From assembly GCF_002224285.1 (NCBI RefSeq), contig NZ_CP022436.1, positions 3,596,001-3,660,000 on the forward strand: a DNA stretch of 64,000 bases, in the 5' to 3' direction. The notes beneath the pieces were generated by a model that saw nothing but the letters and a program-made list of their open reading frames with translations, had not been told where the DNA came from and made no database searches. The position numbers and the translations under genes are program-made. Of this stretch, positions 43,737 to 55,702 are shown in pieces; positions within the stretch are counted from its first letter, which is position 1, and each line of letters opens with the position of its first letter. Source of the stretch: Arthrobacter sp. YN (lineage in GTDB: Bacteria > Actinomycetota > Actinomycetes > Actinomycetales > Micrococcaceae).

Positions 43737-44723
43737 ATGACTACCCGACAGATTCACAGCAGCACCGCGCCTGCAGGCAGGCCGGACTCCCCGCCGCCGG
43801 TTCCGCCAGTCGATGCCGCCCAGCACCCTCCGGTGAGAAGGCGCTGGTCTGGCCGCAGCCGTAAGGACTTCCTGGTTTTCCTTGCCATGGCTTTGCCGAA
43901 CCTGGTGTTGATCGGCACGTTCACGTATTGGCCCCTGATCAACAACATCTATTACTCCACGTTGGATTGGACGTTGGGTTCGGCGTCGGCCACGGTGGTG
44001 GGGCTGCAGAACTATGTCACCTTCTTCACCAGCGAGGATGCGTCCAAGGTCCTGGGGACCACGGCAATCTTCACGCTGGTGACGGTGGGTGGCTCGATGG
44101 TTCTCGGGTTGCTGGTTGCCCTGGCCTTGAACTCGAAGGTCCGTGGAACCACGTTTGCGAGGTCCGCGGTGTTTGCCCCTTACGTGCTGTCCGGGGTGGG
44201 CGTTGGCTTGGTGTGGCTGTTCATCTTCGATCCCGGCTACGGCGTGCTGGCGTGGATTCTTCGGGGAATGGGGCAGCAGAGCCCCCAGTGGATCAACGAT
44301 CCCCAGTTGTCGTTGGTGATGGTCATCATCGTGTACGTGTGGAAGAACCTGGGCTATTGCGCCGTGGTGTACCTCGCCGGATTGCAGTCCCTTCCCCGCG
44401 ACGTGATGGAAGCTGCCGCGCTGGATGGGGCCAACAGCGTGCGGAGGTTCTTCAACATCTCCATGCCGCTTCTTTCTCCCACCACGTTCTTCCTGCTGAT
44501 CACCACCATGCTCAGTTCCTTGCAGGCCTTCGACCTCATCCGCATCATGACTCCGCTGGGCAATGGCACCAGCACGTTGATCTATGAGGCGTATCTGCAG
44601 GCGTTCGGCGCCTACAACCGGGCCGGCTATTCCGCCGCGATCTCGGTGATCCTCTTCGTCATCCTGCTGATCATCACGGTCCTCCAACTGCGGTTCGTTG
44701 AGCGAAAGGTCCACTACTCATGA
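43737..44723 (+). CDS. Sugar ABC transporter permease, MalF/UgpA type
   Basis: 328 residues with a disordered Pro-rich N-terminus (1-45) and six membrane segments. The EAA loop EAAALDGANSVRRFFNISMPLLSP-type motif (near 225-245) contacts the ATPase. The C-terminal LGNGTSTLIYEAYLQAF resembles UgpA, the glycerol-3-phosphate permease, but substrate is not fixed by sequence. No strong ribosome site precedes ATG 43737. It overlaps the second permease gene by 4 nt. Confidence 0.88.
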   Translation: MTTRQIHSSTAPAGRPDSPPPVPPVDAAQHPPVRRRWSGRSRKDFLVFLAMALPNLVLIGTFTYWPLINNIYYSTLDWTLGSASATVVGLQNYVTFFTSEDASKVLGTTAIFTLVTVGGSMVLGLLVALALNSKVRGTTFARSAVFAPYVLSGVGVGLVWLFIFDPGYGVLAWILRGMGQQSPQWINDPQLSLVMVIIVYVWKNLGYCAVVYLAGLQSLPRDVMEAAALDGANSVRRFFNISMPLLSPTTFFLLITTMLSSLQAFDLIRIMTPLGNGTSTLIYEAYLQAFGAYNRAGYSAAISVILFVILLIITVLQLRFVERKVHYS

Positions 44724-45652
44724 GCGCACCGTTACCAGCCGCCGTCGTGCCTTCCCCGCAGGACGCACGGCAGGACGACCGACGGGAGTCGCAGCAATCT
44801 GTGCGGCCGCGTCCCTTCTCCAGCGCCAACCTGCTCCAGACTGTGGCAACCGGGTACGTCCCGTTGATCATTGCCACACTGGTGGTGTTCCTGCCCCTGC
44901 TGTGGATGCTGTTGAGCTCCTTCAAGCAGCCGGGCGAGATAGTCACCATGGATTTGAAGATTCTGCCGGAGTCCCTGAACCTGGAAAATTACGCCACGGC
45001 GATGACCACCGTCCCGTTTGCGCAGTTCTTCGCCAACAGCCTGATCGTGACCGTGATCGGTTCATCCATCAAGGTCATCCTGGCCATCCTGACCGCCTAC
45101 GCCTTGGTATTCGTGCGATTCCCGTTCAAGAACGTGATCTTCGTGCTGATCCTGGTGGCCCTCATGGTCCCGGCCCAAGTGTCCATCCTGCCCAACTACA
45201 TCCTCATTGCAGGCATGGGCGGAAAGAACACGTTGTGGGGCATCATCCTCCCCGGCCTTGGCACGGCATTCGGCACGTTCCTGCTGCGCCAGCACTTCCT
45301 GACGCTGCCGCCGTCCATCCTGGAGGCCGCGGAAATCGATGGGGCCGGCCACTGGCGGCGGCTCTGGCAGATCATCGTGCCGGTCTCGGTACCGTCCATC
45401 GCCACTGTGGCGTTGGTGACCGTGGTCAGTGAATGGAACGACTACATCTGGCCGCTCATCATCACCGACCGCCCCGAAACCATGACGCTGCCTGTGGGCC
45501 TGACGTTGCTGCAGAACTCAGAAGGCAATGGGGCAGGCTGGGGAATCCTCATGGCCGGCGCCGTGCTGGTGATCGTCCCCATCCTGCTGGTGTTCGCGGC
45601 ACTCCAGCGCTACATCGTGGCCGGCCTGACCCAAGGAAGCGTCACCGGCTGA
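44720..45652 (+). CDS. Sugar ABC transporter permease, MalG/UgpE type
   Basis: 310 residues, six membrane segments after a hydrophilic N-terminus of about 40 residues. EAAEIDGAGHWRRLWQIIVPVSVP is the EAA loop near residues 200-223. LPNYILIAGMGGKNTLWGIILPGLG is the usual second-half segment. ATG 44720 overlaps the preceding stop (ATGA). It works as a heterodimer with the first permease. The binding-protein gene follows after 62 nt. Confidence 0.9.
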   Translation: MSAPLPAAVVPSPQDARQDDRRESQQSVRPRPFSSANLLQTVATGYVPLIIATLVVFLPLLWMLLSSFKQPGEIVTMDLKILPESLNLENYATAMTTVPFAQFFANSLIVTVIGSSIKVILAILTAYALVFVRFPFKNVIFVLILVALMVPAQVSILPNYILIAGMGGKNTLWGIILPGLGTAFGTFLLRQHFLTLPPSILEAAEIDGAGHWRRLWQIIVPVSVPSIATVALVTVVSEWNDYIWPLIITDRPETMTLPVGLTLLQNSEGNGAGWGILMAGAVLVIVPILLVFAALQRYIVAGLTQGSVTG

Positions 45653-45714
45653 TTTTCTCCCTCCGCACCATTCGCATCGAAATACCCCTAGTGAAGTTAT
45701 TGAGAGGAAGCACC

Positions 45715-47061
45715 ATGCGTACCAACCTTGACCGCCGACATTTCCTGGGCCTGGCCGGACTAGGCGCCGGAGCAGCGGCACTGGCCGCCTGTGGCGGACC
45801 TTCGACGGCGGGCACGGCAGACGCCGTCGAGACCGCAGCGATCGATTTCAGCGGCGTGAAGCCGGCTGCCTCCATCGACTTCTGGACCAACCACCCAGGC
45901 AAGTCGCAGGACGTGGAGAAGGCGATCATTGAGAAGTTCCACGCCAAGTTCCCTGACATCAAAGTCAACCTCGTCACGGCCGGGGCCAACTATGAAGAGA
46001 TCGCCCAGAAGTTCCAGACCTCGCAGGCAGCCAAGACGGGCCTCCCGGCGCTGGTTGTCCTCTCCGATGTGTGGTGGTTCCGCTACTACTCCAATGGCAG
46101 CATCATCCCCATTGATGGACTGGTGAAGCAGCTGGACATCAAGATCGACGACTTCCAGAAGTCGCTGGTGGACGACTACAAGTACGACGACAAACAATGG
46201 GCGCTCCCCTACGGCCGGTCCACGCCGCTGTTCTACTACAACAAGGACCATTTCAAGGCTGCGGGCCTCCCTGATCGCGCACCGGCCACGTGGCAGGAAT
46301 TCGCGGAGTGGGCTCCGAAGCTCAAGGCCACGTCCGGCGCGCAGTACGCCTACATCTACCCGGCCCTTGCCGGCTACGCGGGCTGGACCTTGCAGAACAA
46401 CCTGTGGGGTTGGGGCGGCAGCTGGTCCAAAGACTGGGACATCACGTGCGATTCCACCGAGTCAGTCGCTGCGTTGCAGTGGGCGCAGGATTCCATATAC
46501 AAGGACGGCTGGGCGGGGGTCTCGTCCAAGGAAGCCGCAGATGACTTCGCCGCGGGCATCACCTCGTCCACCATTTCCTCCACCGGTTCCTTGCTGGGCG
46601 TCCTGAAGGCAGCCAAGTTCAACGTTGGCGTCGGTTTCCTACCGGGCGGTCCAGAAGTGCCCAGCGGAGTCTGCCCCACCGGCGGTGCGGGTCTCGGCAT
46701 CCCAAGCGGCATCACCAAGGAAGAACAGCTTGCTGCGGCCACGTTCCTGAAGTTCATGACCGAACCGGAGAACACCGCCGCTTTCTCCGCTGCCACCGGG
46801 TACATGCCCACGCGTCTCTCGGCCGACATGTCCGCTGTTCTCGCCGCCACACCGCAGATCAAGACCGCCATGGACCAGCTCGCCGTGACCAAGGTCCAGG
46901 ACAACGCACGCGTGTTCCTGCCGGGCGCGGACCAGGAGATGGCCAAGGCCGCTGCAAAGATCCTCACGCAGCAGGGTGACGTCCAGGCAACCATGACCGA
47001 GCTGAAGAAGACGCTCGAGGGCATCTACACCAAGGATGTGAAGCCGAAGCTGAAGGCCTGA
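45715..47061 (+). CDS. Sugar ABC transporter substrate-binding lipoprotein (UgpB-like)
   Basis: 448 residues. The leader has twin Arg (RRHFLG) and lipobox LAAC with Cys26, so it is a membrane-anchored extracellular binding protein. IDFWTNHPGKSQDVEKAIIEKF starts the type 2 periplasmic-binding fold, and WWFRYYSNGSIIPIDGLVKQ and LPYGRSTPLFYYNKDHF are typical of family 1 sugar-binding proteins. Resemblance to UgpB suggests a glycerophosphodiester or oligosaccharide, without proof. ATG 45715 follows GAGAGGAAG; upstream in-frame ATG 45433 lies inside the permease gene. No ATPase gene adjoins. Confidence 0.9.
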   Translation: MRTNLDRRHFLGLAGLGAGAAALAACGGPSTAGTADAVETAAIDFSGVKPAASIDFWTNHPGKSQDVEKAIIEKFHAKFPDIKVNLVTAGANYEEIAQKFQTSQAAKTGLPALVVLSDVWWFRYYSNGSIIPIDGLVKQLDIKIDDFQKSLVDDYKYDDKQWALPYGRSTPLFYYNKDHFKAAGLPDRAPATWQEFAEWAPKLKATSGAQYAYIYPALAGYAGWTLQNNLWGWGGSWSKDWDITCDSTESVAALQWAQDSIYKDGWAGVSSKEAADDFAAGITSSTISSTGSLLGVLKAAKFNVGVGFLPGGPEVPSGVCPTGGAGLGIPSGITKEEQLAAATFLKFMTEPENTAAFSAATGYMPTRLSADMSAVLAATPQIKTAMDQLAVTKVQDNARVFLPGADQEMAKAAAKILTQQGDVQATMTELKKTLEGIYTKDVKPKLKA

Positions 47062-47081
47062 CTCTTCCTTCAGGCGTGAAG

Positions 47082-47111
47082 AGAGCCGGGCTGCTTCAGC
47101 AGCCCGGCTCT
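47082..47111. terminator. Terminator of the ABC importer operon
   Basis: AGAGCCGGGCTGC (47082-47094), loop TTCA, GCAGCCCGGCTCT (47099-47111): a perfect 13-bp stem 20 nt past the stop. The T-run is short. It may also serve the convergent map gene. Confidence 0.8.
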
Positions 47112-47132
47112 TGTGCTTCGGGGTGTACGGCC

Positions 47133-47172
47133 CGGGTCTTACGGGATCGGTACGGGTCTTACGGGATTGGTA
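47133..47172. repeat. 20-bp tandem duplication across the map stop codon
   Basis: Unit CGGGTCTTACGGGATCGGTA (47133-47152) is followed at once by a copy with one change (47153-47172). The map stop (47159-47161) lies in the second copy. Twenty is not a multiple of three, so the copies are read in different frames. Confidence 0.9.
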
Positions 47173-47986
47173 CAGGCACGACGCCGAGCGGCGCCAACTG
47201 CTCGGCGCCTCCATCCGGGGCGGACAGGACCCAGATGCCCTTTTCGTGGACGGCGACAGAATGCTCCCACTGGCAGGAACGCTTGCCGTCGGTGGTGACA
47301 ACGGTCCAGTCGTCGTCGAGGGTGGCGGTTTCGATACCACCGCGCACCAGCATGGGTTCGATGGCCAGGCACAGGCCGGGGCGGATCTTCGGTCCGCGGT
47401 GGCCGGTCCGGTAGTTCAGCACATCCGGAGCCATGTGCATTTCGGAACCAATGCCGTGCCCTACGTAATCTTCCAGGATGCCCAATGGCTTGCCATGGAC
47501 GGAGGACACATAGTCATCAATCGCGTTGCCGATGTCACCGACGAACTTTCCGTTGGCAAGGGCGGCGATGCCGCGCCACATGGCAGCCTCAGTGACGTCG
47601 GAGAGCCGCTGGTCTTCGGGATCGGCGGCACCCACGATGACCGTCCTCGCAGAGTCTGAATGCCAGCCGTCCACGATGCAGCCGCCGTCGATGGAAATGA
47701 TGTCACCATCGTTGAGGACTTTGGTCCCGGGGATGCCATGGACCACCTCCTCGTTGACGGAGGTGCAAATTGTGGCCGGGAAGCCGTGATAGCCAAGGAA
47801 GTTGGACTTGGCTCCTGCATCGTTGAGGACTGCGGCAAAAACATCGTCCAGGTCTTTGGTGGTGACGCCCGGCTTGGCCGCCGCAACTGCAGCGTCAAGT
47901 GCACGGCTCAGGACAAGCCCGGCCTCCTGCATCTTGCGCATCTGCTCGTTGGTCTTGTATTCAATGCGGGGCTGACCGAACGCCAT
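47159..47986 (-). CDS. map: Methionine aminopeptidase, type I
   Basis: 275 residues. It removes the initiator Met from new proteins with a dinuclear metal centre. Ligands are visible as ISIDGGCIVDGWHSDSARTV (two Asp), GHGIGSEMHMAPDV (His), CLAIEPMLVRGG (Glu) and WEHSVAVHEKG (Glu). The last ten residues (LAPLGVVPVPIP) are encoded by a tandemly duplicated stretch. AGAGGAGA precedes ATG 47986. It usually follows adk; here five accessory genes lie between, and map lies 33 nt after the last of them. Confidence 0.96.
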   Translation of the reverse strand: MAFGQPRIEYKTNEQMRKMQEAGLVLSRALDAAVAAAKPGVTTKDLDDVFAAVLNDAGAKSNFLGYHGFPATICTSVNEEVVHGIPGTKVLNDGDIISIDGGCIVDGWHSDSARTVIVGAADPEDQRLSDVTEAAMWRGIAALANGKFVGDIGNAIDDYVSSVHGKPLGILEDYVGHGIGSEMHMAPDVLNYRTGHRGPKIRPGLCLAIEPMLVRGGIETATLDDDWTVVTTDGKRSCQWEHSVAVHEKGIWVLSAPDGGAEQLAPLGVVPVPIP

Positions 47987-48019
47987 GTTCTCCTCTGGAA
48001 AGTTTGCTGATGGAGCCGA

Positions 48020-48931
48020 TCAGGCTCCGTGCTTGAACCATTTTCCCGCATCCGAGACTGTGGTCGAAATTGGCTCGATTCCCAGCTCTCGTCGGAGGCG
48101 TTCCAAACGGTAGGTTCGCTCCCGCCCGAGTTGGTTGACCGCGTAGCGTGTGAGCCGTGGCTTCCGGCCGCTCGCCCGGGAAGCCGCCTCTGAAATGCCC
48201 GCCAAAGCCATGGCCGCCGGCTCGGGAAGGTACCTGATGTCCACGCCGCGGAGTCCAGAGGCGTCCAGAACCTGGCGCAGCACTCCACCCAATTCAACAG
48301 GCTCCGCGTCCCCCACGTTGACGGCGCCCCGGATTTCCGAGCGGCAGGAGGCCAAGACGGCTTGTGCCAGATTGTCCACGTGCGTCAATTGATGTTTCAC
48401 CTGGGCATGTCCGACACTCAGCAAATGGCCTCGGCGGATGTTGCTGATCAGACGTGGCAGCAGCGTCCGGTCCCCCGGCCCGTAGACACCGTGCGGGCGC
48501 AGTGCCACGGCATTGCCATGGCGACGCGCTTCGACGTCGGCGAGCGCCTTGCTGTGTCCGTAGGCATTCAGGTGGCGCGTGGCTACCTCGTCCTCAGCCC
48601 GGTTGACGCATGCTTCCCACCACGGGTAGACGCTGGAACTGGAGATGTGGACCAGGCGGGTTCCGGCGAAGGCCTCGGCTACGGCACGGGTGCCCAGGAC
48701 GTTGGCCCGGTGGAAGAGGGCAGGAGCACCCCAATCGGCAACGTGTGCTGCGGCGTGCACCACCGCGTCAACGGCGGGAAGCCGCGCTGGGGGCAGCCCG
48801 GTCAGATCCCAGTAATTCAGGCCGGCTCCGTGCTGCCTCGCGAAGCGGACCACCTCCCATCCCTGGGCCTCCGCGGCGCTGGCTACGGCTCCCCCGATGA
48901 ATCCAGTGGCGCCGGTGACTGCGATCCTCAC
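48020..48931 (-). CDS. OleD-like NAD(P)-dependent epimerase/reductase (extended SDR)
   Basis: 303 residues of the extended short-chain dehydrogenase family. GATGFIGG (7-14) is the cofactor loop; Ser98-100, Tyr124 and Lys128 (AYGHSKALAD) form the catalytic set. VVHAAAHVADWGAPALFHRANVLGT resembles OleD, which reduces the beta-keto acid made by OleA to a beta-hydroxy acid using NADPH. The start is GTG 48931, overlapping the ligase stop (GTGA). Last gene of a five-gene coupled set. Assignment to OleD rests on fold plus the neighbours; a sugar-modifying SDR serving the glycosyltransferase is the alternative. Confidence 0.75.
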   Translation of the reverse strand: MRIAVTGATGFIGGAVASAAEAQGWEVVRFARQHGAGLNYWDLTGLPPARLPAVDAVVHAAAHVADWGAPALFHRANVLGTRAVAEAFAGTRLVHISSSSVYPWWEACVNRAEDEVATRHLNAYGHSKALADVEARRHGNAVALRPHGVYGPGDRTLLPRLISNIRRGHLLSVGHAQVKHQLTHVDNLAQAVLASCRSEIRGAVNVGDAEPVELGGVLRQVLDASGLRGVDIRYLPEPAAMALAGISEAASRASGRKPRLTRYAVNQLGRERTYRLERLRRELGIEPISTTVSDAGKWFKHGA

Positions 48932-50679
48932 CGCGCTGCCGCTGCGTCGGCCTGTGCCTGTGCCGCCGCCTGGGTGCGTGAAGCGAACCCCTGGCGCAAT
49001 GCTGCGCGGTCGGGTTTCCGGTGCCGGCCACTGGACGGGATGGACTCCAGGACTTCAATGTGGTCCGGGAGCGCGGATTCGTCGATGAGCCTGGGGAGCT
49101 CACGGGCAAGCCGCGACTTCATCAGGGCTGCACTTTCGCCGGCCGCAGTGACGACGGCCAGCCACACTGCCTCGTCTCCAACGGCATCCGGAACGCCTAC
49201 CATCACTGCTTGCCGGACCCCGGGGATCCCGGCTATGACGGGCTCGTAAAGTGCCGGGTAGATGTTGGTCTTGCCTCGGATGATCATGTCCTTCTTACGC
49301 CCGATCATCACCAGCCTCGGCGCCCCGTCGCTGCCGTGGTCCAGCCGGACCAGGTCCCCCGTGGCGTGCTCCACCATAGGGTCTTCGCCTAAGTAGCCGT
49401 TGCACACGTTGGGACCCCGGACCAACAGTTCGTGGTCTTCAGCCACCCGGATTCCGACGGCGGGCAGCGGCTCCCCCAGGAAGTCACCTTCGCCTGTACC
49501 GTCGGGAGCCGTTACTTCAGCCTCCGCACCTGACGCGAACGCCAATTTCTCGTGTCCGTCGGCAATGGCGATCGGAAGCGCTTCCGTCATGCCGTAGATC
49601 AGTTTGAACTCGACGCCCGGAAGCAGACGCATGGCCCGTTTCAGAAATGGAGCCAGAATCGGCGCCGCCCCAAGCATGACTGTCCTCAGCGAAGCCGGCA
49701 GCCTGACCGTTCCTTCTTCGATTGAGTCCAGGATGGGCGCCAACTGTGACGGCACCAGGAAAAGGTGGGTGGCGCCGTCGTACGCTGTCTTTTTGCCGGC
49801 CACGGGCCCCAGTTCGCCCGCAAGCCGGAGAGGATCGATGTGCGCGGAGAATCCGTACGCCGGCATGGTCCAGTGCGCACCGGCAATGAGGGCGGGCAGG
49901 CCCATCATGAGTTGCTCCGAGTGGACCCTGTCGCCTTCCCTGAAGGTGCAGCGCGTGGTGAGTTGTTCAAAGCCGGCGGCGAGTGATCCCCTGGTGTGCA
50001 CCACGCCTTTGGGAGCACCGGTAGTCCCCGACGTGAAGATGATGACGGCTTCTTGCGAGGATGCATTAGCCGGGTCGCCGGCATTGTGGCCATCCCACGT
50101 TGCCATCCGCGTGGTCGCCAGGGCCTTCACCGGCGACGCGCCCCGTGGCACACCAGGCAGCCAGGGTCCTGCGTAGTAGTGGCGGACCTGCATGGCGCCA
50201 TAGTCCGGGAGAAGCAGCCCCCGCCTCCGTGCGAGAGGACGGAGCGGGCTCTTGGTGCTCAATGCATACAGGAGCGACTCCGAGGCTGCCCATTGCGGCG
50301 ACGCGAGCCCTGCACGATCCCGAAAAAGGGAAGGACCGATTCCCGGGTCCATAAACACCACCGAGCCACCCGCCCGAACAGCACCCAAGGCCAGGACAAA
50401 CGCCGCCGGGCTGGGCCGCACGGAGAACAACATCCGCTCTCCGAGGCCGAATCCATCCCTCTGGAGGCCGAACGCCGTCGCCTCAATCCCGTCCACGAGC
50501 TCACGGTAGGTGATGGTCTGACCGGGATTCACTGGCTCCGCACCACGCCCGCCCCTGATGCGGCGTGCTTTGCCTGGGGCGGTGATGGCCGGGTGTTCCG
50601 GGAACCGTTCCGCTGCCGCATACACGGCGGCGATCAGGTCGGCAGTGCCCACGGACTGCTCAACTGTCTCCTCAGACAT
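48928..50679 (-). CDS. OleC-like AMP-dependent ligase (acyl-adenylating / beta-lactone synthetase family)
   Basis: 583 residues of the ANL superfamily. TSGTTGAPKG (216-225) is the AMP-binding loop; YGMTEALPI (362-370), GDL (441-443) and GRKKDMIIRG (460-469) follow, and the late Lys of GRHRKPDR (about K555) can serve adenylation. YG(A/M)TEALP(I/V) is what I recall from OleC, which closes a beta-hydroxy acid to a beta-lactone. The DMIIRGKTNIYP segment is closer to acyl-CoA/ACP ligases, so activation without ring closure cannot be excluded. ATG 50679 overlaps the P450 end by 8 nt. There is no OleB fusion. Confidence 0.75.
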   Translation of the reverse strand: MSEETVEQSVGTADLIAAVYAAAERFPEHPAITAPGKARRIRGGRGAEPVNPGQTITYRELVDGIEATAFGLQRDGFGLGERMLFSVRPSPAAFVLALGAVRAGGSVVFMDPGIGPSLFRDRAGLASPQWAASESLLYALSTKSPLRPLARRRGLLLPDYGAMQVRHYYAGPWLPGVPRGASPVKALATTRMATWDGHNAGDPANASSQEAVIIFTSGTTGAPKGVVHTRGSLAAGFEQLTTRCTFREGDRVHSEQLMMGLPALIAGAHWTMPAYGFSAHIDPLRLAGELGPVAGKKTAYDGATHLFLVPSQLAPILDSIEEGTVRLPASLRTVMLGAAPILAPFLKRAMRLLPGVEFKLIYGMTEALPIAIADGHEKLAFASGAEAEVTAPDGTGEGDFLGEPLPAVGIRVAEDHELLVRGPNVCNGYLGEDPMVEHATGDLVRLDHGSDGAPRLVMIGRKKDMIIRGKTNIYPALYEPVIAGIPGVRQAVMVGVPDAVGDEAVWLAVVTAAGESAALMKSRLARELPRLIDESALPDHIEVLESIPSSGRHRKPDRAALRQGFASRTQAAAQAQADAAAAR

Positions 50680-51856
50680 TCGCCAGCTCCAAACTCTTGT
50701 ATCCCGGAATGAGAACACCTCTGCTGACACGGCGGCTCGAGATGGTCCAGGGTTGATGAAGATACCGGTCCAGCAGTACGTCCAAGGCTGCATTGATCTC
50801 GGCCATGGCCAACGGCATGCCGATACAGAAGTGTGCTCCCGCACCAAACCACAGCTGGCGCGCTTGCGGGGGCATGGCCTCTGCCGGGTCAAAGCCGCGG
50901 AGGCTCTTAGCTGCATGGACGGTGGATAGCAGTATCCTGTCGCCCGCCCGGACCTCCGTCCCGCCAATGACCCCGGGTGCCACTGCATCCCGGATCATCA
51001 TGGGCGATGGCACCGTGAAGCGAAGGGCCTCATTGACCGTGGCAGGAACGGCTGAGCGATCGCTGGCCAGGTCCTCAATCCGTCCACTGTCCGAAAGGAG
51101 CGCCACCAACCGCGGAAGGAAAGAGACCAAGGTTTCGGTGCCCACCATGACGAAAGCACTGATGATGCCCATCGCTTCTTCCTCGGTCATTCCGAGTTCC
51201 CGGAGCCTCCCGGGGAATGTCCCTGGGTCACTCTCCCGGTAGGCCACCCGGGCCGGTCCTGCCAGGATTCCGACGGCGGAACGCCCCTTCGCGATTTGCC
51301 GCGCCGTCAAGGAGGGACGCCCCAAGCGGACAAGCGAGGAGATGGAAGATCCCAGGTTGAAGAGTTCCTTGTTGGGAAGTCTGCCCGGCGCATCGTCGGG
51401 CACTCCCAGCAACCGGGAGATCACTCCCCCGGCCAGGTCCTTGACGCATTCCACCACGTCCACCGAACGACCCGCGTCCAGTTCCTTGGTGATTCGTGAC
51501 TCGAAGGCGGATGCGGCTGGCTCCACTATCACGGCTACCGATCGCGGCGTGAACAGATCACCCAGGCGCTGCCGTAATTTCTTGTGGTCTTCGCCATCCA
51601 TGTTCACCAAGGCTTTGGGACCCACTACGGGAGTCCAGAGCGCGCCCGAACCCGAGGGACCATTCTTGACAAATCTCTGCTGGTCCATGAGCACCTCACG
51701 AACCAGTCCGGCTTCGCTGACCAGCACCCCCAGCCCTGGCAGCTTGACCACCGGACGGAGGCTCCCCACGCCGCGAATCATGGGATAGAGCAGCGGGTGG
51801 GCACCCAGGTGGATGCGTCGTTCCCATCGCTCAGCTGTCGCCGCGTCCGTCATCAC
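50672..51856 (-). CDS. Cytochrome P450
   Basis: 394 residues, soluble bacterial class. The heme-ligand loop is FGAGAHFCIG with Cys344; the K-helix ExxR is E276-R279 (NEALRF); the I-helix has VGTET at 238-242, an acid-alcohol pair with Val instead of the usual first Ala/Gly. MDGEDHKKLRQRL is the C helix with heme-propionate His and Arg. No ferredoxin gene is adjacent. It begins with overlapping GTG 51856 or ATG 51853 at the glycosyltransferase stop. Within an Ole-like set it is a candidate hydroxylase or epoxidase of the lipid chain. Confidence 0.9.
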   Translation of the reverse strand: MMTDAATAERWERRIHLGAHPLLYPMIRGVGSLRPVVKLPGLGVLVSEAGLVREVLMDQQRFVKNGPSGSGALWTPVVGPKALVNMDGEDHKKLRQRLGDLFTPRSVAVIVEPAASAFESRITKELDAGRSVDVVECVKDLAGGVISRLLGVPDDAPGRLPNKELFNLGSSISSLVRLGRPSLTARQIAKGRSAVGILAGPARVAYRESDPGTFPGRLRELGMTEEEAMGIISAFVMVGTETLVSFLPRLVALLSDSGRIEDLASDRSAVPATVNEALRFTVPSPMMIRDAVAPGVIGGTEVRAGDRILLSTVHAAKSLRGFDPAEAMPPQARQLWFGAGAHFCIGMPLAMAEINAALDVLLDRYLHQPWTISSRRVSRGVLIPGYKSLELANV

Positions 51857-52665
51857 CGAATATCCACGTGCTCAGGACGGTATCGGTGGTCTGCGTACCA
51901 CGCCAGAGTGTTCTTCAAGCCCCAGGCTTTGACGCGCCGTGAGGAACCGAACACCACAACATCGCGCCGCAGGGCGTAGTTACGCGTCAGCTTTCTGACT
52001 TGGTTGGACAGGGCCCTGTCCTCATGGAGGTCTTCGATGCTGGAACGGGGGAATCCGCCGGAGCGGTGATACATATCTGCGGTGATGGCCATGTTGCAGC
52101 CCGGGAGCATTTGGTACGGGCCCAGGTATCCCTCGCCCTTATTGCCGGGACGAATACGGCCGAAGAATGAGGCCACCTCCACCGCGAGCAGCATCATCCG
52201 CCGTTCGCCGGCGCTGATTCCCTCATCAAGCCTTGGATTAAGCTGGCCAGCGATCAGTTCCAGCCCGTCCTCGAATGCAGCCATGATCCTGGCAGTCCAG
52301 TCCGGGGCTGCGAGGCAATCGGAATCGGTGCGGGCCAACCATACTGCGCCGTGCTCCACACCGAAGCGCATGCCCGTGTCCGCCGCCGCCCCGGTACCCT
52401 TCTGCCCTTCGATCAGCAGCCGGATGTCCATTCCGGGATGTTCCGCGGCGAACTCAGCCACGATGCCACAGCTGTTGTCAGTGGAGCCGTTGTCCACCAC
52501 AACGACCGTGAAGTCCTTGTGCTCTTGGGCCGCCAAGGACACCAGTGTCTGACGTACCAGTTTCTCCTCGTTCAGCATCGGAACGGCGATACTCAACGGC
52601 CTGGTGGGAGCGCTGCTCGCCAGCCCTGGGCTTGCAGGCTCCGGCCGTGGGTTCATGGCCGTCAC
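51853..52665 (-). CDS. Glycosyltransferase family 2
   Basis: 270 residues, GT-A fold. LSIAVPMLNEEKLVRQTLVSLAAQ opens the domain, VVVDNGSTDNS binds the nucleotide, LARTDSDCLAAPDW holds the DxD metal motif, and GCNMAITADMYHRSGGF and the EDLHEDRAL acidic pair give the acceptor/base region. There is no membrane segment. Sugar and acceptor are unknown. It starts with GTG 52665, overlapping the thiolase stop (GTGA), and overlaps the P450 gene at its end. Being inside the set, it probably decorates its product. Confidence 0.88.
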   Translation of the reverse strand: MTAMNPRPEPASPGLASSAPTRPLSIAVPMLNEEKLVRQTLVSLAAQEHKDFTVVVVDNGSTDNSCGIVAEFAAEHPGMDIRLLIEGQKGTGAAADTGMRFGVEHGAVWLARTDSDCLAAPDWTARIMAAFEDGLELIAGQLNPRLDEGISAGERRMMLLAVEVASFFGRIRPGNKGEGYLGPYQMLPGCNMAITADMYHRSGGFPRSSIEDLHEDRALSNQVRKLTRNYALRRDVVVFGSSRRVKAWGLKNTLAWYADHRYRPEHVDIR

Positions 52666-53705
52666 AGCCGCACCACGGCCATGCCCAGGCTGACGCCGCC
52701 GGCCAATCCCACCAACGCGACGAGGTCACCAGGTCCACACCGTCCGCTGTCCATGGCGAGTTTCAGTTGCAGCGGCAGGCTGACAGACGCCAGGTTGCCG
52801 AAATCCTCCACGGAAGGGACAAGCAGTTCTATCGGGACGCCCGCGCGCTCCGCGAAGATCGCCCGGTACGGAGCACTGACTTGATGAACACACACCACGG
52901 CGAAGTCCGTCCATGACAGGTCAAGCCGCTCCAGCGTCTGGTCAAGAACCTCACACCCAAGATCCAGGAAAGCGTCCTTCAGCTTTTCACCGTCCATGGA
53001 GAAATAGCTGGCTTCCGGATCGCGGGGAAACGCGGAACCTCCCGCTGAGAGCGTACCCACAGACCAGTGGCTGCTCCGCGCGGTGAAAGCCATGGACAGG
53101 ATCCCGGCCGTCCCCTCGGGACCTGACGGCTCCCGGTCTGCCGCCTCAAGCAAAACTGCGGCACCGCCGTCGCTCATGGTGTATCCGGGAAAACTGGACG
53201 CAAAAGTCTCAAAGTCCGGAACCTTCCACCGAACCGCCCTGGACGGCGATTCACCAGTGGCCACCAGCACGCGGGCATAGCGTCCCGTAGAGATCAGGGA
53301 GTCCGCCACTTCGACGCCGTTGAGGAAACTGTTGCAGGCGTTCTTGACGTCCATGACCGGACATGCGAGTCCCAGCTTCGCCGCAACCATATGTCCTGTG
53401 GCCGGCTCCACCATGTCCTGGCTGGCCGAAGCAAAGATCAAGAGGTCTACTTCGGGAGCCTGCAGTCCACATTCAGCCATAACCTTGGCTGCAGCGTTGG
53501 CCGCCAGGTCCGACGCCTGTTCGGCATCAGCCATGACACTGCGGGAACGGATTCCCGTGACGCGACCGATCAGCCCCTTCGGGACCCGGAACCCCGGACT
53601 ACTCTCAGCAATACGGCGCTCGACGGCGGCCGTGTCCAGCCGGGCGGGCGGCAGGTAGACCTCGAGCCCCGAAATCCGGCTGTGCCCAGATAAAGCAGTT
53701 TGCAT
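52662..53705 (-). CDS. OleA-like thiolase-fold condensing enzyme (KAS III family)
   Basis: 347 residues. Catalytic residues are C124 (VKNACNSFLNG), H274 (CVHQVSAPY) and N304 (GNLASVSLP). E100 in MVEPATGHM matches the EPAT glutamate that marks OleA, which condenses two fatty acyl-CoAs head to head into a beta-keto acid; ordinary FabH lacks it. Glu-to-Cys spacing is 24 residues, close to OleA. ATG 53705 follows GGGGGAA; the longer frame to 53771 runs through the adk terminator and is rejected. First gene of a five-gene coupled operon; I see no convincing promoter other than the 35-nt space after the adk terminator. Confidence 0.82.
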   Translation of the reverse strand: MQTALSGHSRISGLEVYLPPARLDTAAVERRIAESSPGFRVPKGLIGRVTGIRSRSVMADAEQASDLAANAAAKVMAECGLQAPEVDLLIFASASQDMVEPATGHMVAAKLGLACPVMDVKNACNSFLNGVEVADSLISTGRYARVLVATGESPSRAVRWKVPDFETFASSFPGYTMSDGGAAVLLEAADREPSGPEGTAGILSMAFTARSSHWSVGTLSAGGSAFPRDPEASYFSMDGEKLKDAFLDLGCEVLDQTLERLDLSWTDFAVVCVHQVSAPYRAIFAERAGVPIELLVPSVEDFGNLASVSLPLQLKLAMDSGRCGPGDLVALVGLAGGVSLGMAVVRL

Positions 53706-53740
53706 GCGGTTCCCCCAACAGTCTGCCGCTAAACGAAAAT

Positions 53741-53775
53741 GGGTGTGTCCCGCACCAATGGTACGGGACACACCC
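53741..53775 (-). terminator. adk terminator
   Basis: GGGTGTGTCCCG (53741-53752) pairs with CGGGACACACCC (53764-53775), a perfect 12-bp stem with an 11-nt loop. On the minus strand it is followed by ATTTTCGTTT. It separates secY-adk from the Ole-like operon. Confidence 0.85.
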
Positions 53776-53816
53776 TTCGCTCCAGAGCCGGGCGAACCGG
53801 CTATGTGGAAAACACG

Positions 53817-54395
53817 CTAGACGGCCTTGGCCGACTCAATCGCTGTGAGGACACGATCGGTAACTTCATCGATACCGCCAATGCCATCAACCTGCGTGAG
53901 GATGCCACGCTCGGCGTACTTGGCCACAACGGCTTCGGTTTGCTCGTGGTACAGATCAAGACGATGACGGATCACGGTCTCGTTGTCATCGGAACGTCCG
54001 GTTTCCTTGGCACGGCCAAGGAGACGGGTCACCAGTTCTTCGTCATCGGCAGTCAGCTGGAGCACGACGTCGAGCTCCTGCTGGCCTTCGGCGAGGATCT
54101 GGTCCAGGTAATCAACCTGGGCCGTGGTACGCGGGTAGCCGTCCAGGAGGAAGCCGTTCTCCACGTCGCTCTGGCTCAGGCGGTCCCGAACCATGTCGTT
54201 CGTGACGCTGTCCGGAACGAAGTCGCCTGCGTCCATGTACTTCTTGGCTTCAATGCCCAAGGGTGTCTCACCCTTGACGTTGGCACGGAAGATATCGCCA
54301 GTGGAAATGGCGACTACGCCGAGGCGCTCGGAAATCCGCTCAGCCTGCGTACCCTTGCCCGAACCGGGAGGTCCAATGATCAGCATTCTCGTCAT
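53817..54395 (-). CDS. adk: Adenylate kinase
   Basis: 192 residues, the short form without the zinc-binding LID insertion. The P-loop GPPGSGKGTQAERIS (8-22) follows MTRMLII, STGDIFRANVKGETPLG is the AMP site, and LLDGYPRTTAQVDYLD is the second signature. It interconverts ATP, ADP and AMP. ATG 54395 overlaps the secY stop (ATGA), so it is coupled to secY. map normally follows; here a terminator and the Ole-like genes come next. Confidence 0.97.
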   Translation of the reverse strand: MTRMLIIGPPGSGKGTQAERISERLGVVAISTGDIFRANVKGETPLGIEAKKYMDAGDFVPDSVTNDMVRDRLSQSDVENGFLLDGYPRTTAQVDYLDQILAEGQQELDVVLQLTADDEELVTRLLGRAKETGRSDDNETVIRHRLDLYHEQTEAVVAKYAERGILTQVDGIGGIDEVTDRVLTAIESAKAV

Positions 54396-55702
54396 CGCAA
54401 AAGCCCTTCGTAGTGACGTTGTTGTAGCTGCGCATCAATCTGCTTGACGGTTTCCAGGCCGACACCCACCATGATCAGGATTGACGTGCCACCGAACGGG
54501 AAGTTCTGGTTGGCATTGATCAGGACAAGTGCAACCAGCGGAATCAGCGCCACGAAGCCCAGGTAGAGGGCTCCGGGAAGGGTGATCCTGGAAAGCACGT
54601 ACTGCAGGTAGTCCGCGGTCGGTTTACCCGCCCGGATGCCCGGAATGAACCCGCCGTACTTCTTCATGTTGTCCGACACTTCTTCAGGGTTGAAGGTGAT
54701 GGCTACGTAGAAGTACGTAAAGAACACGATCATGGCGAAGTAGAGCGCCATGTAGATGGGGTGGTCGCCACGGGTGAGGTTGTTGTTGATCCACTCAACC
54801 CACGGGGCCATCTGCTCCCCTGGCGCCGGCTGGTTGAACTGTGAAATCAGCCCGGGCAGGTAGAGCATGGAGGACGCGAAGATGACAGGCACGACGCCGG
54901 CCATGTTCACCTTGATGGGAATATAGGTGCTGGTACCGCCCACTGTGCGCCGGCCAATCATGCGCTTCGCATACTGGACCGGAACACGGCGCTGGGACTG
55001 CTCCACGAACACAACCAACGCCACAGTCAGCAGGCCTACAGCCAGAACGGTGAGGAAGGTGCCGGGACCCTTGCTCTCCCAGATGGAACCCAGCGAACCC
55101 GGGAAGCTTGCAGCAATGGAGGTGAAGATGAGCAGCGACATACCGTTGCCCACACCCTTCTCCGTCACCAGCTCGCCCATCCACATGATGAGGCCGGTGC
55201 CGGCCGTCAACGTGATGATGATGAGGATGGTGGTCATGATGCTCTCATCAGGGATGATGGGCAGGTTGCAGCCCGGGAGCAATTGACCGGACCGGGCCAG
55301 GGACACCAGGGTGGTGGCGTTCAGCAGGCCGAGGGCGATGGTGAGGTACCGGGTGTACTGGGTCAACTTTGACTGTCCCGAGGAACCCTCTTCGTAGAGC
55401 TGCTGGAACCGGGGAATGACCACCCGGAGCAGCTGCACGATGATGCTCGCCGTGATGTAGGGCATGATGCCCAAGGCAAAGACTGAGACCTGCAGCAACG
55501 CGCCGCCGCTGAACAAGTTCACCAGCTGGTAGATGCCCTGCGAGGTGTCACCGGTGTTCAAGCATTGCTGGACATTCTGGTAGTTCACACCAGGCGAGGG
55601 GATAAAAGCTCCCAAGCGGAAGATTGTGATGATTCCCAGCGTGAACAACAACTTGCGTCGCAAATCAGGCGTCCGAAACGCCCGGCCGAATGCGCTTAGC
55701 AA
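54392..55702 (-). CDS. secY: Protein translocase subunit SecY
   Basis: 436 residues, ten membrane segments. RRKLLFTLGIITIFRLGAFIPSPGVN is the first helix region, GGALLQVSVFALGIMPYITASIIVQLL and the late RIT...PGALYLG segment are standard. It forms the membrane channel with SecE and SecG. TTG 55702 is the start, with AGGAGG 5 nt upstream; no ATG fits. A terminator 110 nt upstream separates it from rplO, so it has its own promoter. Confidence 0.97.
   Translation of the reverse strand: MLSAFGRAFRTPDLRRKLLFTLGIITIFRLGAFIPSPGVNYQNVQQCLNTGDTSQGIYQLVNLFSGGALLQVSVFALGIMPYITASIIVQLLRVVIPRFQQLYEEGSSGQSKLTQYTRYLTIALGLLNATTLVSLARSGQLLPGCNLPIIPDESIMTTILIIITLTAGTGLIMWMGELVTEKGVGNGMSLLIFTSIAASFPGSLGSIWESKGPGTFLTVLAVGLLTVALVVFVEQSQRRVPVQYAKRMIGRRTVGGTSTYIPIKVNMAGVVPVIFASSMLYLPGLISQFNQPAPGEQMAPWVEWINNNLTRGDHPIYMALYFAMIVFFTYFYVAITFNPEEVSDNMKKYGGFIPGIRAGKPTADYLQYVLSRITLPGALYLGFVALIPLVALVLINANQNFPFGGTSILIMVGVGLETVKQIDAQLQQRHYEGLLR

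Follow-up and report, generated by a model that had tools for sequence, protein, structure and literature searches.

The 64,000-nucleotide window of Arthrobacter sp. YN analyzed here (contig NZ_CP022436.1, positions 3,596,001 to 3,660,000) holds five overlapping minus-strand genes, at 48020-53705, that encode an OleA-like type III ketosynthase (KS), a GT2 glycosyltransferase, a cytochrome P450, an ANL adenylate-forming enzyme and an OleD-like short-chain dehydrogenase/reductase (SDR). We propose, as a probable role for this operon, the head-to-head joining of two fatty acids followed by oxidation and glycosylation of the product. A condensation-reduction core with added tailoring steps is a likely reading of these genes, and the pathway taken whole, a tailored Ole-type lipid operon whose product is a glycosylated, oxidized beta-lactone with the ring included, comes a little short of an even chance. 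Both the cassette type and its product prediction are already in print, and the window operon is a member of the described kind in which the P450 and ligase genes are swapped. New here are the breadth of the cassette, its site between adk and map, an NACNS signature in the KS, the divergence of the ligase, and a comparison with bare KS-ANL-SDR (KAS) clusters.

The first-pass annotation of this DNA had described five overlapping genes on one strand, and their bounds and overlaps (4 nt between KS and GT2, 4 nt between GT2 and P450, 8 nt between P450 and ANL, 4 nt between ANL and SDR) were borne out. The KS gene (52662-53705, minus strand, ATG start) encodes 347 residues, among them E100-P101, C124, H274, N304 and the sequence NACNS around the nucleophile. 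Also on the minus strand are the genes for the GT2 (51853-52665; 270 residues, DSD at 114), the P450 (50672-51856; 394 residues, heme-ligand Cys344 and ExxR at 276), the ANL enzyme (48928-50679; 583 residues, with YGMTEALPI, an OleC-like A5 motif, and a CoA-ligase-like hinge and last motif) and the SDR (48020-48931; 303 residues, Y124xxxK128 and GATGFIG at 7). Every catalytic residue that had been named for the KS, P450 and SDR lies at the position claimed, the ANL motif YGMTEALPI is present, and Pfam and NCBIfam agree with the earlier labels of all five proteins at the family level. Compared with solved structures, the GT2 found generic GT2 relatives only and the P450 generic bacterial P450s only.

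A survey of named genomes returned 147 loci encoding a relative, the best 80 of which were used for locus counts. The order KS-GT2-P450-ANL-SDR on one strand is kept at 70 of these 80 actinobacterial loci, and the five-gene grouping is therefore more than chance. Six of the 10 deviating loci reach, or come close to, the end of a contig (L081, L090, L093, L097, L123, L131), and at another (L084) the ANL match lies on the opposite strand. In Isoptericola halotolerans (L124), and likewise at L052, a locus of genome G043 outside this count, the GT2 match is split across two frames and the SDR was undetected, pointing to either a decayed cassette or sequence errors; at two Herbiconiux loci (L127, L135) the SDR, KS and P450 alone were detected of the cassette, with the SDR preceding the KS. 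Families carrying the cassette include Micrococcaceae, Pseudonocardiaceae, Promicromonosporaceae, Cellulomonadaceae, Microbacteriaceae, Streptosporangiaceae and Streptomycetaceae, and the nearest named relative of the window KS is that of Paenarthrobacter sp. CM16 (96%). Of the 36 other genomes in the genus, four (G005, G008, G016, G020) encode a close KS homolog, each with all five genes along with adk, secY and map; so does G043, a genome of another family in which KS, GT2, P450 and ANL genes are present.

KS genes of this kind are found in 9 of the 148 genomes of an even draw of the class, source genome included, and their surroundings vary. One locus (L180) keeps the KS-GT2-P450-ANL-SDR order, two (L181, L182) read KS-GT2-ANL-P450-SDR, and three from Actinomycetes (L183, L185, L186) are bare KAS clusters; at L187 the KS alone is visible before the contig end. 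The arrangement at L184 is KS-GT2-ANL-GT2-P450-SDR, with one GT2 on either side of the ligase gene. At 32 of the 80 named loci (e.g. L071:14274-15428, L100:7475-8641), a second, divergent P450 is encoded close to the cassette on the other strand; by the same criteria it occurs at none of the 17 Arthrobacter/Paenarthrobacter loci. Horizontal transfer from Pseudonocardiaceae, favored by the KS tree (99/94), was considered but not adopted as the origin of the Arthrobacter copy, as the ANL tree instead places the Arthrobacter rows beside Microbacteriaceae (94/92).

The operon had also been described as lacking OleB, and three approaches found none anywhere in the source genome, a single 5.06 Mb contig. 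A query made from the OleBC fusion of a canonical ole operon (L055) had no match there at E<=1e-30 (15 of 33 first-look candidates scored), a haloalkane-dehalogenase model gave seven matches, none above its cut-off, and the OleB domain aligned with the seven haloalkane-dehalogenase-like loci over at most 43 residues, against 80-84% identity over 304-327 residues for two control loci. The OleBC query matched 28 of the 59 genomes searched (the source genome among the 59), and 23 of the 36 others of the genus. The canonical ole pathway and the cassette are separate, since G008 and G043 hold both an OleBC match and cassette genes. A second complete ole set in the source genome was rejected on the lack of any OleBC match and on the finding that the window SDR is itself the top match to the OleD model; the OleC model gave five matches in that genome, none above the cut-off, and the window ANL is missing from that list (87 bits by hmmscan). 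Two further OleA candidates of the source genome were also set aside. The KASIII-like L001 groups with two FabH rows in the tree, and L053 is instead a chalcone-synthase-like type III polyketide synthase of an unrelated small cluster at about 2.82 Mb (L053:8653-11640), which also encodes a methyltransferase and an FAD monooxygenase.

Signs of kinship between the KS and OleA come from its active site and, less firmly, from its tree. KS trees were built from 34 of the 80 named loci plus the window, L127 and L135 being among them without a full cassette, and the KASIII-like gene L004 of the source genome was left out. In all 35 rows of the KS clade, a Glu-Pro pair (E100-P101 in the window) aligns with OleA 3fk5 at the position of Glu117 of Xanthomonas campestris OleA, for which PMC7064751 describes a functional role; the three FabH rows carry T or F there. 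The catalytic set C124, H274 and N304 is likewise present in 35 of 35 rows, as is NACNS around the nucleophile, where OleA has NACL. A relaxed form of the published OleA pattern, ending in NACN, fits all 35 rows. The cassette KS proteins form one clade (96/96) that adjoins OleA (100/100) and is separate from FabH, and the best NCBIfam match of the window KS is an Ole-family model (NF006720, 168 bits). The grouping of the thiolase with OleA and not FabH, on which the earlier description depended, is favored in both KS trees, but the joining branch falls below the 95/80 mark in each: 94/63 in the first and 93/75 in a second tree that held 6 of the 24 canonical OleA rows and 3fk5, both with a long-branch warning.

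The reductase and, in part, the ligase point the same way. The SDR has the YxxxK and GxxGxxG motifs of extended SDRs, is 32% identical to the OleD of L055, and finds its best NCBIfam match in the OleD model NF042422 (118.5 bits), of which it is also the top match genome-wide. The best NCBIfam match of the ANL enzyme is again an Ole-family model (NF006754, 145 bits), and the canonical OleA, OleBC and OleD of L055 have the same three top models as the cassette KS, ANL and SDR. In trees of 29 named loci and the window, with 9 of the 12 other ANL proteins of the source genome as outgroup (L153, L155 and L158 were left out), the cassette ANLs fall into one clade (100/99) together with those from loci of the Actinoplanes-like order, and this clade is sister (97/91, with a long-branch warning) to a group of OleC and KAS ligases (100/99). 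Support for the sister relationship with OleC is 86/82 when the KAS rows are removed, and a tree of the N-domain also places the ANL beside OleC (91/91). In the three KAS clusters, in turn, the KS belongs to the cassette clade and its partner ligase is of the OleC type.

A number of results weigh against this reading. The OleA pattern EPxx[AS]x(14,18)DxxNACL, given in PMC7158056, is matched by 24 of 24 canonical OleA rows and by none of the 35 cassette KS rows. Pairwise, the KS is 29% identical to FabH and 25-30% identical to OleA, a single-sequence search nearly ties OleA 3row (109.5 bits) with FabH 4ryb (108.3 bits), and with a profile built from six cassette KS proteins FabH 4dfe (140 bits) comes out ahead of OleA (120 bits). 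All three core enzymes fall below the cut-offs of the Ole models: the KS reaches 168 bits against 285 for NF006720, on which the OleA of L055 scores 455; the SDR 118.5 against 580 for NF042422 (OleD of L055, 284, likewise under the cut-off); and the ANL 87 against 900 for the OleC model NF045786 (OleBC of L055, 302, likewise under it). The tree program issued its long-branch warning for both the KS and ANL trees, the ANL C-domain tree gives no placement, and in path length the ANL is no nearer to OleC (6.3-6.5) than to the genome's own ligases L147 (6.1) and L159 (6.3). One such ligase, L013, outscores the window ANL on the OleC model (90.7 against 87.3 bits). The cassette ANLs have a hinge, GRx[KR]DMxxRxxxN[IV]YPxL[YH]EP, and a last motif, GR-xxKxDR, that are nearer to ordinary acyl-CoA ligases than to OleC, each in 10 of 10 rows (seven from loci with the window order and three with the other order). 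Finally, according to the account of the Actinoplanes atraurantiacus OleA in PMC7064751, the protein precipitated, and the little of it that was recovered gave no reaction with the acyl-CoAs that were tried.

From these genes we infer the following reactions, substrates and order of steps. The KS, using E100 as the base, would join two activated fatty acids in a Claisen condensation that yields a 2-alkyl-3-keto acid, and the SDR would reduce this to a 2-alkyl-3-hydroxy acid. The ANL enzyme would adenylate the carboxylate and close a beta-lactone, and the P450 would hydroxylate an alkyl chain, on which the GT2 would place a sugar; with OleB absent, the product would escape decarboxylation to an olefin. 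Lactone closure is the least sure of these steps, and because the C-terminal motifs of the ANL are nearer to acyl-CoA ligases and L013 scores higher on the OleC model, we hold the ring at somewhat under even odds at best. The product had been described as an oxidized, possibly glycosylated beta-lactone or beta-hydroxy lipid; of this, the Ole-related core, the added P450 and glycosyltransferase and the missing OleB were upheld, and a beta-lactone as the end product was weakened by the hinge and last motif of the ANL, the L013 score and the failure of the Actinoplanes OleA to react with the acyl-CoAs it was given. The OleC-like label given to the ligase similarly held in the tree but not in the C-terminal motifs or in the ranking on the OleC model.

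The main rival to a glycosylated, oxidized beta-lactone is its open-chain 2-alkyl-3-hydroxy equivalent. Here, the ANL enzyme would activate the 2-alkyl-3-hydroxy acid, as an acyl-AMP or CoA thioester, for attachment elsewhere and would no longer close a lactone, giving a mycolate-like branched hydroxy acid that the P450 and GT2 decorate. We regard this as rather unlikely, though the ligase motifs speak for it: all 10 cassette ANL rows examined have the hinge and GR-xxKxDR ending described above, as opposed to the RHN[AS]KI ending of OleC (4 of 4) and the KAS ligases (3 of 3; rows printed or aligned, the printed OleC rows being L055, L137 and L138), and two of the four own ANLs compared, L147 and L149, share the KDM and N.YP of the cassette hinge. 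An own ligase that scores as high as the window ANL on the OleC model fits this alternative too, as does the retention of an OleC-type ligase in the three bare KAS clusters. It is opposed by the whole-protein and N-domain trees, which place the ANL by OleC and not by the own ligases, and RHN[AS]KI is itself only presumed to be required for lactone formation.

We consider two other alternatives less probable still. Some ketosynthases that form pyrones have a base glutamate, and with a FabH-like or pyrone-type KS the operon would make an unrelated product, either a small polyketide or a derivative of a fatty acid. Such an assignment is improbable: the KS is as close to FabH as to OleA in identity and its profile ranks FabH first, but E100-P and NAC are found in 35 of 35 rows, the trees set the clade apart from FabH, the SDR and ANL are linked to the KS at 70 of 80 loci, and the KAS clusters join this KS to an OleC-type ligase. 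The operon could also feed an olefin pathway with OleB encoded elsewhere in the genome. Strains of Paenarthrobacter and Arthrobacter make olefins according to PMC7158056, and G008 and G043 have an OleBC match in addition to their cassette genes, but no substantial match to OleBC or OleB turned up in the source genome, making this alternative extremely unlikely. We retain the tailored condensation-reduction pathway, with its ring held less firmly than its core.

The first-pass annotation knew of no described cluster with this five-gene order. That no such cluster has been described is not supported, as the same five gene types and a nearly identical product prediction appear in the description of an A. 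atraurantiacus region in PMC7064751 (mBio 2020), although in a different listed order. As set out there, OleA, GT, OleC, P450 and OleD genes lie together in a genome with no candidate oleB, and condensation, reduction, hydroxylation, glycosylation and lactone closure are proposed to yield a glycosylated beta-lactone; the OleA was active in a p-nitrophenyl hexanoate screen. The gene types, oleB-less genome and predicted chemistry are thus shared with the window operon, as is an OleC homolog, with the reservations about the ANL given above, whereas that text lists OleA-GT-OleC-P450-OleD and here the P450 precedes the ANL. The grounds for kinship between the two regions are their gene content and three genomes having the listed order (L181 and L182, and L184 with an extra GT2). 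In the canonical oleA-oleBC-oleD operon at L055, genes for homologs of the condensing, ligase and reductase enzymes likewise adjoin one another, but OleB is there fused to OleC, the KS has NACL and not NACNS, the locus is a different one, and P450 and GT genes are not among its members, the neighborhood having been scanned for the three ole genes only.

Nocardia brasiliensis and Streptomyces toxytricini have beta-lactone clusters, compared here by description only, that share with the cassette OleA, OleC and OleD homologs and the lack of OleB. In those clusters two ketosynthases work as a pair, and to our knowledge neither has a GT2/P450 pair such as the one found here. Both are named in PMC7064751 as OleB-less oleACD beta-lactone clusters. 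The KAS clusters share with the cassette a KS of the same clade and an SDR of the same family, but their ligase is OleC-type and the 18 kb read showed no GT2 or P450 of the cassette family at E<=1e-6; they are candidate pathways to simple beta-lactones that do without tailoring genes. Among Paenarthrobacter and Pseudarthrobacter genomes, antiSMASH betalactone regions are listed in PMC11719660 and PMC12025171, in terms that fit the cassette and a canonical ole operon equally. Among the papers listed in searches of the open-access literature, from which subscription journals are mostly absent, none showed a product for the cassette.

The operon lies between adk upstream (adenylate kinase; 53817-54395, minus strand), which adjoins secY (54392-55702), and map downstream (type I methionyl aminopeptidase; 47159-47986, minus strand), the latter 33 nt past the SDR stop. 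Both genes flank the cassette at all 17 named Arthrobacter/Paenarthrobacter loci and at none of the remaining named loci among the 80. Gaps between SDR and map are short at these 17 loci and in the window (7-46 nt), so map may be co-transcribed with the cassette in these strains. On the other side, between adk and the KS gene, is a terminator-like hairpin (53741-53775, minus strand; 16 pairs, loop of 3, T-rich tail), which has the longest stem among the five terminator-like sites of the region, a number matching the 4.9 expected from shuffled sequence. Its core, TCCCGTACCAT, is present in 17 of 18 adk gaps of cassette loci, window included (the exception being L066), and an inverted repeat between adk and map was also seen by eye in eight of eight cassette-free relatives examined. 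The core pattern has one match in the source genome; on this and on the repeat in the cassette-free relatives we reject a dispersed repeat and read the hairpin as an ordinary adk transcript end. A promoter scan of 47000-54500 gave no sites, against 1.2 expected in shuffles. Farther along the window, two ABC-transporter permeases and a solute-binding protein are encoded on the plus strand (43737-47061), converging on map.

In conclusion, since the cassette occurs across many actinobacterial families with its gene order strongly kept, its product is likely useful to the hosts. A more speculative thought, which we offer as doubtful, is that Ole chemistry has a third fate: the lactone synthetase of the clusters with glycosyltransferase and P450 genes may have turned into an activating ligase, with which Actinobacteria would build mycolate-like, oxidized and glycosylated 2-alkyl-3-hydroxy lipids, not olefins or beta-lactones. 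A natural comparison is offered by the KAS clusters, in which the KS is of the same clade, the ligase is OleC-type and tailoring genes were not detected. If the cassette products are beta-lactones, they would add a glycosylated group to a class that has antibiotic and anti-obesity members; if they are not, the change in the ligase would show the reuse of Ole enzymes for making glycolipids.

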